From Verrucomicrobiota bacterium (GTDB taxonomy: Bacteria; Verrucomicrobiota; Verrucomicrobiia; Opitutales; Opitutaceae): DNA of 32,903 nt. Location of the stretch: contig JAPLTN010000064.1 of assembly GCA_026398135.1 (NCBI GenBank), positions 1 through 32,903 of the forward strand, given 5' to 3'. Position numbers and translations under genes: made by a program. The notes under the pieces are model-generated. The model worked only from the letters and a program-made list of their open reading frames with translations, was not told the DNA's origin and searched no databases. Positions 7,917-15,371 of the stretch are shown in pieces; the first letter of the stretch is position 1; the number at the start of each line of letters is the position of its first letter.

Positions 7917-7993
7917 CGGAAAACACTTGGGGTAACATTTTAAATCGTGGCGCGGGAGGTTGACGTGGCTTGGGCGCCGGGTGCGCTGGTGGC

Positions 7994-9778
7994 ATGACGA
8001 AACACGAGATCGCCGAAGTGCTGGAAGAGATCGGGGTGCTGCTGGAATTGCAGGGGGAAAACCCGTTCAAGACGCGCGCTTATCAGAACGGGGCGCGGGC
8101 CTTGGAGGCGATGGAGGCGAACGAATTTGCCGCGCGCATGGCGGCGGGGACGCTGGGGGAGTTGAAGGGCTTCGGCGAAGCGCTGGTGGACAAGATCGGC
8201 AAGCTGCACGCGACGGGCCGGCTGGAGTTTTACGACAAACTTCGGGCGCAGATTCCGGACGGGGTGATCGCATTGCTGGAGGTCCCGGGGCTGGGGCCGA
8301 AAAAGATCAAGGCCCTGCGCGAGCAACTCGGGGTGGAGTCGCCGGAGGCCTTGGCCGAGGCGTGCAGGGCGGGGCGGGTGGCGGAGCTGGCCGGCTTCGG
8401 GCAGAAAACGCAGACGAAAATCCTGGAGGGCCTGGCCAATCGCGAAGCTTACGGGAAACGGCATCGTTGGTGGGATGCGCGGGCGGTGGCGGAGCCGATC
8501 GTGCATGCGTTGCGTTTGCTGGCTGGGGTGCGGCGGGCGGAGGCGGCGGGCTCGTTGCGGAGGAATTTGGAGACGGTCGGCGACCTGGATTTCATCGTCG
8601 CGGCCGATGCGACGGCGGCGGAACGCATCACGGGCTGGTTTTGCGCGCAGCCGGACGTGAAGGAGGTGACGGCGCGGGGCGAGACCAAGGCGAGCGTGCG
8701 TTTCGCGAGCGGGTTGCAGGCGGATCTGCGCATCGTGCCGGAGGCGCAGTTCGCTTTTGCGCTGCATCATTTCACGGGCTCAAAAGACCACAATGTGGCG
8801 ATGCGGCAGCGGGCCTTGGCGCGCGGGATGTCGCTTTCGGAGTGGGGTCTCGTGCCGGAGGCAGGAGAGGGCACGGCCAAGGAAAAGGCGGAGCGCGGAG
8901 AGAGTGTGGTGGCGGCGGACGAGGCGGAATTATTTGCCCGGTTGGAGTTGGAGTTTATCCCGCCCGAGTTGCGTGAGGGGCTGGGAGAAATCGAGATCGC
9001 GGAGGCGGCGCGGGCGCACGGGGTGGCTTTGCCGCGCCTGGTGGAGCTGGCGGATCTGCGGGGGGCGTTTCACAATCATACGACCGAATCGGACGGGAAG
9101 AACTCGCTGGTGGAGATGGCGCAGGCGGCGGAGGCTTTGGGTTGGGAATATCTCGGCATCGCGGACCACTCCAAATCGTCGGTGCAGGCGCGCGGGTTGG
9201 ACGAGGAGCGGCTGGCGGCGCAGGTCGCGACGATACGGGCGTTTAACGCCAGCGGACGCTGCCGCACGCGACTGCTGGCCGGGGTGGAGTGCGACATCCT
9301 GCCGGATGGGCGGCTGGATTACTCGGATGAGGCGTTTGCGTCGCTGGGTTTGGATTACGTGGTGGTGTCGGTGCACAGTGCGTTTACCCAGAGCGAGGAC
9401 GAGATGACGCGGCGCATCGTGCGCGCGATCGAGCATCCGCGCACGACCATGCTGGGGCATGCGACGGGACGGATTCTTTTGCGACGCGAAGGCTACAAGG
9501 TGGATCTGGCCCGGGTGGTCGATGCGGCAATCGCTTGCCGCGTGGTCATCGAATTAAACGCGCATCCCTCGCGGCTGGACATGGATTGGCGGCTGTGGCG
9601 GCGGGCGGCGGAGCGCGGGCTGATGTGCGCGATCAATCCCGATGCGCACGACACCTCGGGTTTGCGCCATGTGGAGGCCGGGGTGCGGGTGGCGCGCAAG
9701 GGCTGGTTGCAAGCGGACAAGGTGCTTAACACCCGGGATTTGGCGGGGGTGCTGCAGTGGTTTACCGCCAGGCGCTGA
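7994..9778 (+). CDS. polX: Family X DNA polymerase / 3'-5' exonuclease with PHP domain
   Basis: A 594-residue bacterial PolX, which fills short gaps in base-excision repair and trims 3' ends. An N-terminal helical domain (1-80) is followed by helix-hairpin-helix motifs ([28 protein letters not shown]). The polymerase palm contains GSLRR...DLDFIV with its DxD metal pair and ADLRIVP with the third aspartate. The C-terminal PHP phosphoesterase domain from about residue 355 shows metal ligands in [47 protein letters not shown] and INPDAHD. All catalytic motifs are intact. The ATG at 7994 fits the family N-terminus [14 protein letters not shown]; an upstream in-frame start adds only 8 residues. 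Confidence 0.95.
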
Positions 9779-10426: not shown

Positions 10427-10485
10427 GCCTTTGAAATTATTGCTCGACGCGACGTTTGGGCATCCTGAGGTATATTGGCAATAAT

Positions 10486-11100
10486 ATGGTCATTTCTTGG
10501 TTTTCTTTAATGGGTGCTCTGCTGTTCGGCTTTTTGCCCGCACGGTTACTGATAAACAGCGAGTGCCGGTATTTTGACTTTGAGCAGCTGCGGACGCGTT
10601 TACTCACCAAGCCGGAGGATAAGCGTAAACGTCGGCGCTGGTGGAAGCTTCCCTTGGTTTGGATCGATCCGGTGCGCGGTTATGTGGTTTCGACTTTGTT
10701 GAGTCAGGCCTTTGATCTGGAAGGGAAGCCGGATTTCATAACGCGGCAGCTTCCGCTGGTGCTCACGTTTCTAATTTTGGCCGGCGTGGTATTTACGCAA
10801 ACGCTTGGAAGGAAGGATGAAAACGAGTCTTTTTCGCCCGCTGGTTTTATGGCGGGCCTGATTCTCGGTTTAGTGCCTTGGATGGTGGCGGTGCCGACCT
10901 TGTTGATTGGTCTGACCGTGACGATGGCGATGAATATGTATGCGGTTGGTTATTTGTCGGCGGCGGTGTTTATGGGTGGGCTTGGTTTCGCCTTTGGGGT
11001 CGGGAAAACGCAGTCGGCGGCTTACGCGATCTTGGTGGCCGCGCCCGCGTTGATCAGCTGGTTCCGACGCACCAAGCTGGTTACGCCAGTGCGATGCTGA
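10486..11100 (+). CDS. Unrecognised integral membrane protein
   Basis: A 204-residue protein with a first membrane helix (WFSLMGALLFGFLPARLLI), a basic soluble loop (RLLTKPEDKRKRRRWWKLPLVWIDPVRGY), then about four further helices (LVLTFLILAGVVFTQTL; AGFMAGLILGLVPWMVAVPTLLIGL; AVGYLSAAVFMGGLGFAFGVG; AAYAILVAAPALISWF). No family was recognised. The ATG at 10486 was chosen over a TTG at 10456 because it starts nearer the first helix. Its last 79 bases overlap the 3' end of the convergent WYL regulator gene. The last predicted helix lies largely in that overlap. Confidence 0.72.
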   Translation: MVISWFSLMGALLFGFLPARLLINSECRYFDFEQLRTRLLTKPEDKRKRRRWWKLPLVWIDPVRGYVVSTLLSQAFDLEGKPDFITRQLPLVLTFLILAGVVFTQTLGRKDENESFSPAGFMAGLILGLVPWMVAVPTLLIGLTVTMAMNMYAVGYLSAAVFMGGLGFAFGVGKTQSAAYAILVAAPALISWFRRTKLVTPVRC

Positions 11101-12128
11101 GGAAAGCGGCGCAGGCTCAGGGTGAGCGGTTTCTTTTCGCTGGTGCTGTAGAGCTGGCGGGCTTGCTCCAGGGCTTGGCGGCATTCGGTGCGGAGTTCGG
11201 GCGGGGCGAGGGCCTCGGCATCCGGCCCCCAGCTTAGCACCCATTGGCGGACTTCAGCCAAGGCTCCGAGGCGCAAGCGTAGTTCCAGTCCGCCGTCGGG
11301 CAGGGCGATGAGCTCTTGGGTGTCGTGCCACTCGCGCTCGCGCACCCGGTCCGCCACCTGGGCGGAGAAACGGATGCGGATGGCGTGGCGGGCCTCGCCG
11401 CTCAGGACGCCGAGGGCGTGGGCAAAGAAAGTTTCGGGGGAAAAACCGGCCGGGCGCTCGAAGCGGCGGGCCAGCACGGTGACCTCGCTCATGCGCCCGA
11501 GGGCGAAGGTTTGCACGCGGGCTTTTTTCACGTCTTCGGCGACGAGATACCAGAGGTTGTCGCGATTCGATAAGTGGTAGGGACGCAGGCGGCGCGGGGT
11601 GGGGTCGCGTTCGCCGGGCTTGCGGTAAATGAGGCTGAGTTCGCGGCGGGCGGTCACGCCTTTGCTGACGGCTTTGAACACCTCGGGGTCCACCCGACCG
11701 AGGCCGAGGTGTTTGAACGAGACCGCGTCGGCCGGGGGCAGGCCGTCGAAGGTCACTTGATCGCGCAGCCCGGCGGCGAGTTTGTCGAAGGTGCCCTGGA
11801 GTTGCCGGTAGAGCGGCGTGCCTTGGTAGGGCTTGAGCGCCTGGCGGGCTACGGCCAGGGCAAAAACCTCGCCCTCGGTGACTTGCAGGGTGGGAAATGC
11901 CTGTACGGGGCGGGTGTAGCGGTAGGCTCCGAGGGCGCGGTCGAACTCGATGGGCAGTTCCAGGTCGTCGCGCATGGCGGCGATGTCGCGCACCACGGTT
12001 TTGCGGCAGACACCGAGCTCGGCCCCGAGGGTGGCGCAGGTGACGAAGCGGCCGCGTTGCAGCGCCTCGTGGATGACGTGCAGGCGGCGGACGGAGAAAC
12101 GGGATTTGAGACCGGCGAAATCAGGCAT
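11022..12128 (-). CDS. WYL-domain transcriptional regulator with N-terminal winged helix
   Basis: A 368-residue regulator. A DeoR-type winged helix-turn-helix (about 10-75: ...ATLGAELGVCRKTVVRDIAAM then LPIEFDRALGAYRY) is followed by a linker, a WYL sensor domain (about 160-240: LSLIYRKPGERDPTPRRLRPYHLSNRDNLWYLVAEDV, then VQTFALGRMSEV) and a C-terminal extension domain (WCX-like, ending near QARQLY). WYL domains bind nucleic acids or nucleotide ligands in several phage-defence, CRISPR and DNA-damage regulators. About 37 residues trail beyond the usual end and overlap the convergent membrane-protein gene. A perfect inverted repeat 27 bases upstream of its ATG suggests control of itself and of the divergent gene. 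Confidence 0.88.
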   Translation of the reverse strand: MPDFAGLKSRFSVRRLHVIHEALQRGRFVTCATLGAELGVCRKTVVRDIAAMRDDLELPIEFDRALGAYRYTRPVQAFPTLQVTEGEVFALAVARQALKPYQGTPLYRQLQGTFDKLAAGLRDQVTFDGLPPADAVSFKHLGLGRVDPEVFKAVSKGVTARRELSLIYRKPGERDPTPRRLRPYHLSNRDNLWYLVAEDVKKARVQTFALGRMSEVTVLARRFERPAGFSPETFFAHALGVLSGEARHAIRIRFSAQVADRVREREWHDTQELIALPDGGLELRLRLGALAEVRQWVLSWGPDAEALAPPELRTECRQALEQARQLYSTSEKKPLTLSLRRFPQHRTGVTSLVRRNQLINAGAATKIA

Positions 12129-12154
12129 GCGGAAAATCTCAAAGAATTTTTTGC

Positions 12155-12175
12155 CTGGGACAAGCTGTGTCCCAG
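12155..12175. promoter_or_regulatory. Candidate operator for the WYL regulator
   Basis: A perfect 8-bp inverted repeat, CTGGGACA-N5-TGTCCCAG, lies in the 68-base gap between the divergent WYL regulator and the 210-residue protein gene. Symmetry and spacing suit a dimeric winged-helix protein. It overlaps where the -35 region of the rightward promoter would lie. Binding by this regulator is inference. Confidence 0.6.
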
Positions 12176-12183
12176 CGGGGTGC

Positions 12184-12190
12184 TATAAAT
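12184..12190 (+). promoter_or_regulatory. Candidate -10 element for the 210-residue protein gene
   Basis: TATAAAT lies 6 bases before the ATG at 12197. Transcription would then start at or next to the start codon, which would make the message leaderless and fits the lack of a Shine-Dalgarno site. No good -35 hexamer is seen at the usual distance; the inverted repeat occupies that place. Confidence 0.45.
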
Positions 12191-12196
12191 ACGGAC

Positions 12197-12829
12197 ATGA
12201 AATCCCGCGCCAAATCCGTCACGAAGTCTGCCAGTGTGCGTTCGGCCAAGCTGAAGCTGGTCGCCGCCGAGGTGTCGCCCGAGTTGTCCTGGTCCAGTCT
12301 GGGGCGCTCCTACCGAGTCGGGGTCTGGCCGGAGCCGGTGTTTATGCGCACCAACCGGGAGGGGGCATGGGAGGCCTATGCGCCTGACCCCGAGGCGGAC
12401 GAGTTTGCGGCGGCGGCGGTGCTGCTGGGGGCGCGGGAGTGGGCGAGGTATCTGGATTTCGCGCCGACGGAAGTGGCTGCGTTTATGGCGGGGTTTGGGG
12501 GCGGAAAACTGGAGGCGTGGGCGGTGTTGACCCAGTGCCCGGAGTTGCTCCCGGTGTTGGCGGAGGCACCGGCTCTGGCGTCGTTTTTGGCCGGACACGT
12601 TTCGCTGCTGGGGGCAGAGGGGCCGCGTTGGGCGGAGATCCGGGCGGTTTACGAGCGGGGCGGTCACTGGGCGCTGCTCGATTGGCTGGGGCTTCCGGCG
12701 ACGCATAAGGGCTGGGAAGCGTTGCGGGGCCTGCAAACGCCGGAGATCGCCCGGAAGGATTTGCTGCAATGCCGGGCGCGGCTCTGGGCGGTGCCGGGGG
12801 CCCGGCTATCGCACGCGCTGGCGGCGTAA
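12197..12829 (+). CDS. Unrecognised soluble protein divergent from WYL regulator
   Basis: A 210-residue protein that I do not recognise. The first 25 or so residues are basic and Ser/Lys-rich (MKSRAKSVTKSASVRSAK), probably disordered. The rest is alanine- and tryptophan-rich and predicted mainly helical (EFAAAAVLLGAREWARYL; EAWAVLTQCPELLPVLAEAP; WALLDWLGLPATHKGWEAL). No membrane segment, signal peptide or catalytic motif is evident. The ATG at 12197 was chosen because an upstream GTG (12167) falls inside the candidate operator. The head-to-head arrangement with a WYL regulator suggests that the regulator controls it. Codon use and GC content look like those of the neighbours. Confidence 0.72.
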   Translation: MKSRAKSVTKSASVRSAKLKLVAAEVSPELSWSSLGRSYRVGVWPEPVFMRTNREGAWEAYAPDPEADEFAAAAVLLGAREWARYLDFAPTEVAAFMAGFGGGKLEAWAVLTQCPELLPVLAEAPALASFLAGHVSLLGAEGPRWAEIRAVYERGGHWALLDWLGLPATHKGWEALRGLQTPEIARKDLLQCRARLWAVPGARLSHALAA

Positions 12830-12862: not shown

Positions 12863-13336
12863 TCAGGGTTCGCCGAGGGGCTTAAAGTGCTCGTCTAACA
12901 AACGCAGCAGGAGGACCGCTCCTCGGCCATCCGCTCGGAATTCTCCGTAGCGGGCGGCGGCGTAAGTGTCGCCTTTGCCTTCGGGAAAGAACCAGGCGTC
13001 GGTGCCGATCCGCACCCGGCCTTGGCGTAATCGGTAATCGACCAAAAGCTGCCCCGGCGAAAGCGGTGTGCCGTTGTCTAATCGGACCAGTTGGGCCACG
13101 CCCTTGGCGTCCGGGGCCAGTACCAGCCGGCCATCCTGTTCCGGATTACCCAAGTCTCGCTCCAAGGCGTAGGCCAAGGCCATGTAGTCGCCCTGCATCA
13201 GACTGCGGGGATCGCGGGGGGCGAGGGCGAGTATCACCGGAGTGCCGGAGGCGAGCTGGCGTTCTCGCAGGTAAATCGCGGCATTGGCGGCGATCAGCAC
13301 GAGCAGGCCGCCGAGGATGAGAATGCATTTACGCAT
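12863..13336 (-). CDS. GDYXXLXY-domain membrane-anchored protein
   Basis: A 157-residue protein with one N-terminal membrane helix (ILILGGLLVLIAANAAIYL). The family-defining motif QGDYMALAY follows at about residues 48-56, then a conserved GTDAWFFPEGKGDTYAAARYGEFR region that gives the extracytoplasmic domain. The GDYXXLXY family has no established function. It is nearly always encoded next to DUF2157/DUF4401 membrane proteins, as here: its start overlaps the upstream gene by 8 bases, so the two are translationally coupled and probably form a complex. Confidence 0.88.
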   Translation of the reverse strand: MRKCILILGGLLVLIAANAAIYLRERQLASGTPVILALAPRDPRSLMQGDYMALAYALERDLGNPEQDGRLVLAPDAKGVAQLVRLDNGTPLSPGQLLVDYRLRQGRVRIGTDAWFFPEGKGDTYAAARYGEFRADGRGAVLLLRLLDEHFKPLGEP

Positions 13337-15371
13337 AGGCGTACTCCCGGGCCCAAGTCCGACGTAAAATGAACCACAGGCTCAGCGCAGCGAAGCCCAT
13401 GCCTGCCAGTCCTGCGCCCTTCACCACCAGCGGCGTGGCGTAATCCAACTGGTAATGCGCCCAGATCAGGCCAAGCAGGGTCAAGACACCCAGTCCCAGA
13501 AACGGCGTGTCCAATTCCTCAAGCGCGACGAGGATGATCGCAAGCGCGACGGAGGCTCCGGGAACCACCAGGCCCAAGCTCGCGGGCACTGCCGCCGCCG
13601 CCATCAGCCAGGCACGACGTTTTTGCGGGGCCGGGGCGTTTCGTAGCACAAGGGCAGCAACTCCCAGAATGGCGAGAAATTCGAGGATGGATCCGATGGT
13701 GATGAGACCGGGGGTCGCTCCGCTGCTCCACCGGGATTCCATCCGGGTGGCGAGGAAACATCCTGCCCAGCCCGCCAGGAGGCCACGGCTTAGCGGTCGG
13801 GCGAGGGTTCTCCAGCGCGCTTGGGCCGGGGGTGTCAGCAGTAACGCTGCAATCCCTAAAGCTACTGGTCCTGTTGAGAGGGCAAAATGATTGGTATGGA
13901 TGAGTTGGCTGATCAGCGCCCCGCTGGCAATGCCTGCGCACCATCCACGGTGTGTCGGGGCTGGCGCGGCGAAAAAGAGTGCCATGGCCACGGCGGCGCT
14001 CACGAAAGCTGCGGTGGGCCAGCTGAGGTTCATGCCCATCATCCCGACCATCACCGCGCCTTGGCCGGCCAGACTGAGGGCCAGAGCGAACTGGTTGCCG
14101 ATTACTCCGGTGGACTGTCGAAGGGTCAGGACATTTGCGGCGCATAGTACCAGACCTAAACCCAAAAGAATGCCCTCGTTTTGCGCCGCAAAGCCCACGG
14201 GAATCGCCAGGGCAATCATGAGTAACAGCGCCCCCAGCCAGCCCCCCGCGCCTTGGAGCAATCGTAGCGGCCAGGGATCCGTGGCGGTGTCTTCCGCGGG
14301 AGCATCCCCCGTGGCTAGGCCGACTGCCACCAGTTGTTCCCAAGTGCCTGGGTGGGTCGAGCGGGTGGGGCTTGGTTTGGCGTGTTGAGGTGGAATTTGT
14401 GCGACTTCCCGGCTGACCGAACGAAGCCAAATGCCTGCGGTGGCGGTCAGGGCCGTGATTAATAAACCCGTTAACAAGAAGCCGAAGAAATTCTCCTGCC
14501 CAAGGATAGCTCGACCGGTTCCGCTCGTGATGACCACGATCACGGCCAGGCAACCCGCAGACAGTAGGACCAGGTCTATATTCTGTCGTCGGTAGGCCCG
14601 AAAGCCGACCGCGAGGAGTATGGGAAAGGGCAGAAGTTCCAGCACCGAACTGGCTTCCCGTCCAAAAATAACCGCCAGCACCAGCATCGTGGCGGTCCAT
14701 AGCGAAGCCAAGGCGGGCACGCGTATGGCCCAGCGAACATTCATCCAGTCCAGGCGCTTGGCCAGAAATTCCCACGTTGGCAGAACAACGCTGTTCAGTC
14801 CCAAGAGGAACCAGAACAGGCCCATATCCCCCAGCATGCGCCAAGGGTGTTCGTCCCAAGCCAGGCCGATGGTGGTGTTGGCGAGAATCACGCCTAGCAG
14901 CACCAGTAGCGCACTGCGGGCGATGCCGATCCATGGACTGATGAGCATGAGCCAGGCGGCGAACAACTGCCAGGGATCCGCTCCTGTTTGGTAGGTCTGG
15001 CCGATTAGCGCCAGCAGAGGGCCGACAGCCACCGCCGCCCAGATCACGCCGGCCTTGCCTGGTCGCGAATCCAAGCCCTGCCACCAAGCGATAGCCACGC
15101 CGAGCACCACCGCACCCTGCGCCAAGGCGAACCGTGTGGGACGGCCCATACCGTCCCAATTAGCGGCGATGAAAAGCACCAGACCGGCTAGAGCCAGAAG
15201 CACGCCCAAGCCCAGAAGCAGACGATCCAGATTTCGCCTCCAGTCCTCGGGACGAGGCTGTCCCGCCACCGTGATCAAGGCCGCCTGCGCGTGATCCGGA
15301 TTCAGCCGACCGGCTGCGATCCAGTCCAGCACCCGGCGTCTGGCTTGAGGATCGGGGGCGGTGGTTTCCAT
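13329..15371 (-). CDS. DUF2157/DUF4401 polytopic membrane protein
   Basis: A 680-residue membrane protein with about 18-20 predicted helices. The N-terminus has a short cytoplasmic DUF2157 head (RRVLDWIAAGRLNPDHAQAAL) followed by LLLGLGVLLALAGLVLFIAA and NWDGM, typical of DUF2157. The C-terminal half matches DUF4401-like sequence. A cytoplasmic Pro/Thr-rich loop near residues 325-350 separates the halves. Function is unknown in the family. TAAGGA lies about 10 bases before the ATG, one of the better ribosome sites in the window. It forms an operon with the overlapping GDYXXLXY gene. Confidence 0.87.
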   Translation of the reverse strand: METTAPDPQARRRVLDWIAAGRLNPDHAQAALITVAGQPRPEDWRRNLDRLLLGLGVLLALAGLVLFIAANWDGMGRPTRFALAQGAVVLGVAIAWWQGLDSRPGKAGVIWAAVAVGPLLALIGQTYQTGADPWQLFAAWLMLISPWIGIARSALLVLLGVILANTTIGLAWDEHPWRMLGDMGLFWFLLGLNSVVLPTWEFLAKRLDWMNVRWAIRVPALASLWTATMLVLAVIFGREASSVLELLPFPILLAVGFRAYRRQNIDLVLLSAGCLAVIVVITSGTGRAILGQENFFGFLLTGLLITALTATAGIWLRSVSREVAQIPPQHAKPSPTRSTHPGTWEQLVAVGLATGDAPAEDTATDPWPLRLLQGAGGWLGALLLMIALAIPVGFAAQNEGILLGLGLVLCAANVLTLRQSTGVIGNQFALALSLAGQGAVMVGMMGMNLSWPTAAFVSAAVAMALFFAAPAPTHRGWCAGIASGALISQLIHTNHFALSTGPVALGIAALLLTPPAQARWRTLARPLSRGLLAGWAGCFLATRMESRWSSGATPGLITIGSILEFLAILGVAALVLRNAPAPQKRRAWLMAAAAVPASLGLVVPGASVALAIILVALEELDTPFLGLGVLTLLGLIWAHYQLDYATPLVVKGAGLAGMGFAALSLWFILRRTWAREYAYA

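Follow-up and report, generated by a model that had tools for sequence, protein, structure and literature searches.

The closest described relatives of the regulator reported here are DriD and PafBC, both of which are WYL-family proteins activated by single-stranded DNA (ssDNA). DriD, from Caulobacter crescentus, is a DNA-damage activator that turns on didA, bapE, recJ and dnaG, as well as an operon divergent from its own gene. PafBC acts in mycobacteria by sigma adaptation: it supports RNA polymerase at promoters without a normal -35, which have a promoter motif around -26. The protein is heterodimeric, and a single element is read by one of its subunits. Other members of the family, BrxR and CapW, act at phage-defence loci and are repressors released by ligand. 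In a separate context, the ssrA tag, which ends in LAA, is recognised by ClpXP.

One DriD study (PMC12340889) gives the consensus site as ATACGAC-N7-GTCGTAT; the bound protein covers a poor -35 and always keeps the same distance to the -10. The same source describes the driD control region as bidirectional, with DriD activating the divergent operon. In the open-access literature searched, nothing was found on the control of DNA damage by WYL proteins in Opitutaceae.

The DNA analysed here, referred to as the window, comprises 32,903 nucleotides from a Verrucomicrobiota bacterium of the family Opitutaceae; it forms contig 25 of a draft genome that totals 3.39 Mb and is split into 117 contigs. 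A WYL gene and a gene for a 210-residue protein diverge from a short control region, which contains an inverted repeat (Table 1). Several features resemble those of DriD. The regulator is an HTH-WYL-WCX protein, and its control region is common to a divergent gene. The inverted site has a GAC-N7-GTC core (here GGGAC-N7-GTCCC), lying over a non-consensus -35 and at a fixed distance from the -10, and DNA-repair genes are among the putative targets in relatives of the window. In contrast to DriD, the outer letters of the site are GGGAC and not ACGAC, the phylum is another one, the two proteins are only ~22% identical, and the neighbouring target is of an unrelated protein family, carries an LAA tail and is probably translated from a leaderless mRNA.

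Table 1. Features of the divergent locus (positions in the window)
Feature	Position	Strand	Basis
WYL-family regulator gene, 368 aa	11022..12128	-	Pfam HTH_11, WYL, WCX over cut-offs; nearest solved proteins DriD, then PafBC
Divergent control region, 68 bp	12129..12196	.	Sequence
T-run directly upstream of the dyad	12147..12152	+	Sequence; TTTT at most 14 nt upstream of the dyad in 49/69 loci
Candidate operator dyad, CTGGGACA-N5-TGTCCCAG	12155..12175	.	Sequence; conserved core TGGGACA-N5-TGTCCCA at 12156-12174
-35 position, CAAGCT, without consensus, mid-dyad	12161..12166	+	Spacing from the -10; consensus scan
-10-like hexamer TATAAA, 9 nt past the 19-bp dyad core	12184..12189	+	Sequence; TAnnnT in relatives
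Putative 210-aa target gene, ATG 22 nt past the dyad core	12197..12829	+	ORF; start codon at 21-24 nt in 69/69
Codons for C-terminal ALAA, ssrA-like tail	12815..12826	+	AA invariant in 40-row alignment; AA ends in 69/69

PafBC shares membership of the WYL family with the window's regulator. Unlike the PafBC heterodimer with its single element, however, the locus combines a symmetric dyad with one WYL gene: of the eight ORFs scanned around it, one encodes a WYL domain, and a second, PafBC-style subunit gene is absent. The placing of a WYL regulator beside its target recalls SiwR, as far as the accessible part of its description goes, as well as BrxR and CapW. Unlike the phage-defence loci at which BrxR and CapW act, this locus gave no phage-defence gene when five of its proteins were searched with PADLOC, where the matches (WYL models and a Cas3c model) fell on the WYL protein alone.

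The three domains of the WYL protein, HTH_11, WYL and WCX, all exceed the Pfam cut-offs, with the HTH at the N-terminus. In a phmmer search, its nearest PDB relatives were DriD-type proteins (E 2e-11 to 4e-11), followed by PafBC (2e-9 to 5e-9). Foldseek, used with a model of modest quality (pTM 0.43) that gave low TM-scores of 0.2-0.4 on the query, ranked DriD at the top (1.7e-16), with PafBC close behind (8e-15) and then CapW and BrxR. The protein has 368 residues, and most of the 62 ortholog ORFs have 327-333; the part of the gene encoding its extra tail (11022-11100) overlaps the 3' end of a convergent ORF at 10456-11100. Another gene near WYL encodes a PolX-type DNA polymerase (family X, PHP domain included, 7970-9778). 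On the other side, a GDYXXLXY protein and an adjacent DUF2157/DUF4401 membrane protein (12863-15371) converge on the 210-residue gene.

Conservation of the cassette in Opitutaceae

The first-pass annotation had described a perfect dyad in a 68-base divergent gap and had called it the only one there, and all of this held on re-reading. The arms, which enclose the spacer AGCTG, are exactly as it gave them. The gap separates the WYL start codon, which ends at 12128 on the minus strand, from the ATG of the 210-residue ORF, and the dyad is the sole perfect inverted repeat of at least 6 bp that is wholly inside it. In each of the five other inverted-repeat pairs listed, one arm is partly or wholly outside the gap. 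With up to three mismatches allowed, the window contained a single match to the dyad, compared with a match in 5 of 100 shuffles (mean 0.05). The complete 3.39-Mb draft contained no second site at two or fewer mismatches. Its next best sites are eight in number, each with three mismatches, and TAnnnT at promoter spacing is absent from all eight.

Matches to the 210-residue protein, 72 in all, came from 71 of the 200 Opitutaceae genomes. Seventy loci were kept; a 33% fragment in G082 (E 1e-3) and a contig-edge fragment in G192 were dropped, although G192 is still counted as a cassette genome in the nuclease and LexA comparisons below. Directly upstream of the gene, TGGGACA-N5-TGTCCCA is present at 10 or more of its 14 letters in 69 of the 70 loci, with best scores of 14 in 27 loci, 13 in 34, 12 in four, 11 in three, 10 in one and 8 in one. 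A divergent WYL homologue lies within 900 nt of the gene in 66 of the 70. Scores of 13-14 were reached in 61 of the 70 real loci versus none of 1,400 dinucleotide shuffles and none of 617 control windows, for which the highest values were 12 (two shuffles) and 10 (control windows). Across the family, the strict pattern is present in 61 of 200 genomes versus 7 for a reversed control pattern. The first-pass annotation had staked its operator on conservation in orthologous gaps, and the dyad is retained there even though the partner proteins are only 34-47% identical to that of the window. The WYL gene, the dyad and the 210-residue gene are a conserved cassette in Opitutaceae, with the dyad at its centre.

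Within the dyad, the outermost C...G pair seen in the window is variable among relatives. One position of the left arm varies between A (59% of the loci) and C (39%), and the right arm does not change to match. The 5-nt spacer is conserved as well, reading AGCAA in 25 of 69 loci and GCCAA in 15 of 69. This uncompensated position and the conserved spacer letters argue for a protein site rather than an RNA stem.

Four loci have no neighbouring WYL gene. In G043, the target keeps its dyad and the closest WYL gene is on another contig; in G106, a genome that is 68% complete, no WYL was found; the third is the second copy in G006, near a contig end. The fourth, G164, is the locus in which the dyad is absent. 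Here, transposase-like ORFs, read as istA/istB, lie upstream of the 210-residue homologue (L087), and the genome gave no WYL match at E 1e-50. The two copies of the gene in G006 (L110 and L103) are each behind a dyad. Nine other genomes drawn from the genus of the window have neither the partner gene nor a strict dyad. In a phylum-wide draw, the partner family was present in 15 of 288 genomes, of which 11 are Opitutaceae and four gave weak matches, three of them at E 8e-10 to 2e-12.

Twenty further WYL loci were also compared. In eight of these, a related, GGACA-N5-TGTCC-like dyad abuts or overlaps the WYL start codon (11-12 of 14 letters or, in L230, a weaker dyad beside a 13/14 site), and the other 12 have none. 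Because of these eight, this group of WYL proteins seems to read GGACA-N5-TGTCC. Taken with the counts of divergent WYL genes and of dyads given above, the comparison supports the earlier proposal that the locus holds a regulator, its candidate operator and a putative target. Repair genes follow no general pattern next to WYL in the 20 loci: a Y-family polymerase ORF comes after the WYL gene of L230 (G001:C4), which has two dyad-like sites upstream of it, and an exonuclease-like ORF, a tentative reading, comes after that of L242.

Promoter anatomy and other genes behind the dyad

The dyad had been said to lie where the rightward -35 should be. This agrees with the spacing in the window, since a 17-nt spacer counted from TATAAA places the -35 in the middle of the dyad. 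A consensus scan found no sigma-70 promoter. Across the orthologous loci, TAnnnT follows the dyad core after 9-10 nt in 67 of 69, compared with 10 of 980 control positions. L071 and the window are the two that differ; the TATAAA of the window is in the same place and ends in A. An in-frame ATG or GTG is found 21-24 nt past the dyad in every one of the 69 loci. Among the 67, the start codon follows the -10 after 6 nt (48 loci), 7 nt (17 loci) or 9 nt (two loci). The transcription start is thus expected on or beside the start codon, so that the mRNA of the 210-residue gene is probably leaderless, with the ATG as its first base. In the opposite direction, 34 of 66 loci have 23-29 nt between the dyad and the start codon of the WYL gene (27 nt in the window), and in the others the distance is greater.

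The same module is found in front of other genes. A PD-(D/E)XK nuclease of ~820 aa (PF12705), for which AddB-like is used here as an interpretive label, had matches in 101 of the 200 genomes. Of the 50 cassette genomes with this gene, 48 had its upstream region read (G111 and G143, in which it is broken or split, were left out), as did 22 of 51 others; G027 was dropped for having no N-terminal match. A dyad of 12-13/14 with TAnnnT at the usual spacing precedes the nuclease gene in 8 of the 48 cassette genomes (G073, G095, G192, G119, G180, G136, G049 and G034), a count that includes G049 and G073, which had prompted the test, versus none of the 22 others. Regions with a best dyad of 10/14 (G031, G038, G108 and G173) were counted as negative, and the site is absent in 40 of the 48. 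The window's own genome had no AddB-like match at E 1e-60.

Small proteins of ~61-66 aa are encoded behind the dyad at nine loci in eight genomes. Four of these loci were found via the dyad (G081, G065, G095 and G054) and five via protein similarity (G182, G021, a second copy in G081, G104 and G194). At all five loci found by similarity, the dyad scores 11-13/14, TAnnnT is present, and the start codon comes 21-22 nt past the dyad. The T-run upstream of the dyad also recurs at small-protein sites such as L221 and L121. The similarity search gave 12 matches, comprising the query, one locus known from the dyad, the five new ones and five that were judged unrelated, as they lack the common tail or start and have best dyads of 7-10. 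The window's own genome yielded no homologue of the small proteins.

Strict dyads away from the cassette number 14. Four precede the small-protein family, and three (G083, G049 at 3963776 and G108:C180) have a correctly placed -10 without a recurring gene. The remaining seven look like chance or single cases and include a Y-family polymerase gene in G099. This polymerase was rejected as a regulon member: its site scores 14/14 in G099, but no more than 10/14 in the other 29 top homologues, four of which are from cassette genomes. Eight further non-cassette sites comprise two at AddB-like genes, two in G108 with a -10 and four without a -10. The two in G108, L222 (G108:C349) and L223 (G108:C224), have 13/14 dyads, a -10 and near-leaderless starts, and precede a 459-aa von Willebrand A-like ORF and a small membrane-protein-like ORF, respectively.

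The presence of dyad sites at other genes points to a trans-acting factor. As the window's own genome has no second site, no small-protein homologue and no AddB-like match by these searches, the link to DNA repair comes from its relatives only. LexA is present in the window's genome, and a WYL switch there would therefore be a second pathway. Family-wide, LexA was found in 53 of 70 cassette genomes versus 74 of 130 others (Fisher p 0.009); since cassette genomes carry it more often, the system does not appear to be a general replacement of SOS. Among the eight genomes with the AddB module, LexA was not found (E 1e-3) in five, versus 17 of the 70 cassette genomes overall.

The partner protein and its C-terminal tail

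The structural model of the 210-residue protein (pLDDT 88.7) is confident for the body and of low confidence at residues 206-210. Searches of Pfam, NCBIfam, PADLOC, PHROGs and PDB sequences gave no convincing family match for the window's protein, and neither did a Pfam scan of all 40 aligned members of its family. At the level of fold, no convincing match was found in the PDB, using Foldseek and VIA-align on 578 Foldseek candidates, or among viral folds. A distant relative is L261 (G356), a 509-aa PcfJ-like protein (PF14284) from Verrucomicrobiota, which aligns with the 210-residue protein ahead of its PcfJ domain. This link is thin, with a profile match at 8e-10 and a 92-aa alignment at 27% identity, and the PcfJ domain is present in L261 only, being found in none of the 40 family members.

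The C-terminus of the partner family is uniform. All 69 complete proteins end in AA and 51 of them in LAA; the background, 214 long ATG ORFs of the same loci taken from all six frames and including some that are not genes, has nine AA and five LAA ends. The tail comes after a variable linker, and its AA is invariant in the alignment. The G164 partner also ends in LAA. Among the small proteins, AA is found at the end of all nine and LAA at the end of five. These termini resemble those of ssrA-tagged substrates of ClpXP, which suggests that the partner proteins are short-lived effectors.

A proposed activator and its alternatives

We consider it fairly likely that the dyad serves the adjacent WYL protein as its operator, and that this protein is a DriD-like activator which switches on a new, short-lived effector upon DNA damage. 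Here, a WYL homodimer would be activated by the ssDNA that arises on DNA damage and would bind to GGGAC-N7-GTCCC over the -35 position. The bound dimer would hold sigma-70 RNA polymerase at a promoter with a -10 but without a -35, and the 210-residue gene would thereby be switched on and transcribed as a leaderless mRNA. Activation, as opposed to another mode of control, is suggested by the fixed spacing between dyad and -10, by the missing -35 and by the relationship to DriD. The (A)LAA tail would then deliver the effector to ClpXP-type proteolysis, and the response would stop once the signal stops. The same dyad, 27 bp from the WYL start codon, may also set the expression of the WYL gene. 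As to the role of the effector, we would guess at a damage checkpoint protein or one that helps in repair.

The same dyad could also serve a repressor. In this case, the WYL protein would block both divergent promoters, that of the 210-residue gene and its own, until a ligand binds. The overlap of the dyad with the rightward -35 position would suit such a function, as would its short distance from the WYL start codon in about half of the loci and the related dyads at the start codons of the eight further WYL genes, which is a typical place for autorepression. However, no usable -35 is seen, though a repressed promoter would be expected to have one, and a repressor does not need the near-constant spacing between dyad and -10 that is also kept at the AddB-like and small-protein promoters. 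In the fold search, the known repressors BrxR and CapW came after both DriD and PafBC. Repression is therefore held to be unlikely. Lower still, at a small probability, stands a different and unlinked regulator that reads the dyad while the WYL gene is merely a neighbour. G043, with its dyad and its WYL gene on separate contigs, and G106, where no WYL was found, would fit with this; the divergent WYL gene at nearly all of the loci does not, and the sole target without a dyad, that of G164, is in a genome without a WYL match. Related dyads at the starts of other WYL genes and a GAC-N7-GTC geometry that is also that of DriD likewise tie the site to the WYL protein.

Two further readings do without a regulator. 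As a perfect inverted repeat with G+C-rich arms, the dyad might form a stem in nucleic acid and act as a terminator, an attenuator or an mRNA hairpin. Yet the sequence scan gave no terminator-like site, and the start codons come so soon after the dyad, with the -10 in between, that the dyad is predicted to be outside the rightward transcript. The left-arm change from A to C, which leaves the right arm as it was, indicates that sequence and not pairing has been kept, and a stem is accordingly very improbable. The least probable reading, close to nil, is that the dyad is a chance occurrence or a repeat element without function. The single occurrence in its own genome at two or fewer mismatches and the chance-like half of the strict non-cassette sites are in its favour, but it is already contradicted by conservation: the dyad is kept between strongly diverged proteins, the shuffles and control windows are far below the real loci, and the strict pattern greatly outnumbers its reversed control.

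Beyond the locus, the preferred reading of a DriD-like activator leads to a wider proposal, which is put forward tentatively and which we rate as somewhat more doubtful than not. It holds that Opitutaceae have a second DNA-damage response, run by an ssDNA-sensing WYL activator of the DriD type. This activator would control at least two unnamed families of LAA-tailed, rapidly destroyed effectors made from leaderless mRNAs, one family having no detected match among solved structures. The response would mostly stand beside LexA, in some genomes it would apparently act without it, and in several lineages it would have recruited a repair nuclease.

If this is true, the DriD type of SOS-independent damage control would extend to Verrucomicrobiota. 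The module would also provide an operator and promoter code from which targets can be predicted, namely the dyad, an interval of 9-10 nt, a -10 and a leaderless start. In addition, there would be two new families of effectors with degron tails, one without a detected structural match. Finally, the spread of the site to the AddB-like nuclease, with most of those cases in genomes where LexA was not found, would offer an example in which the rewiring of damage regulons could be studied.
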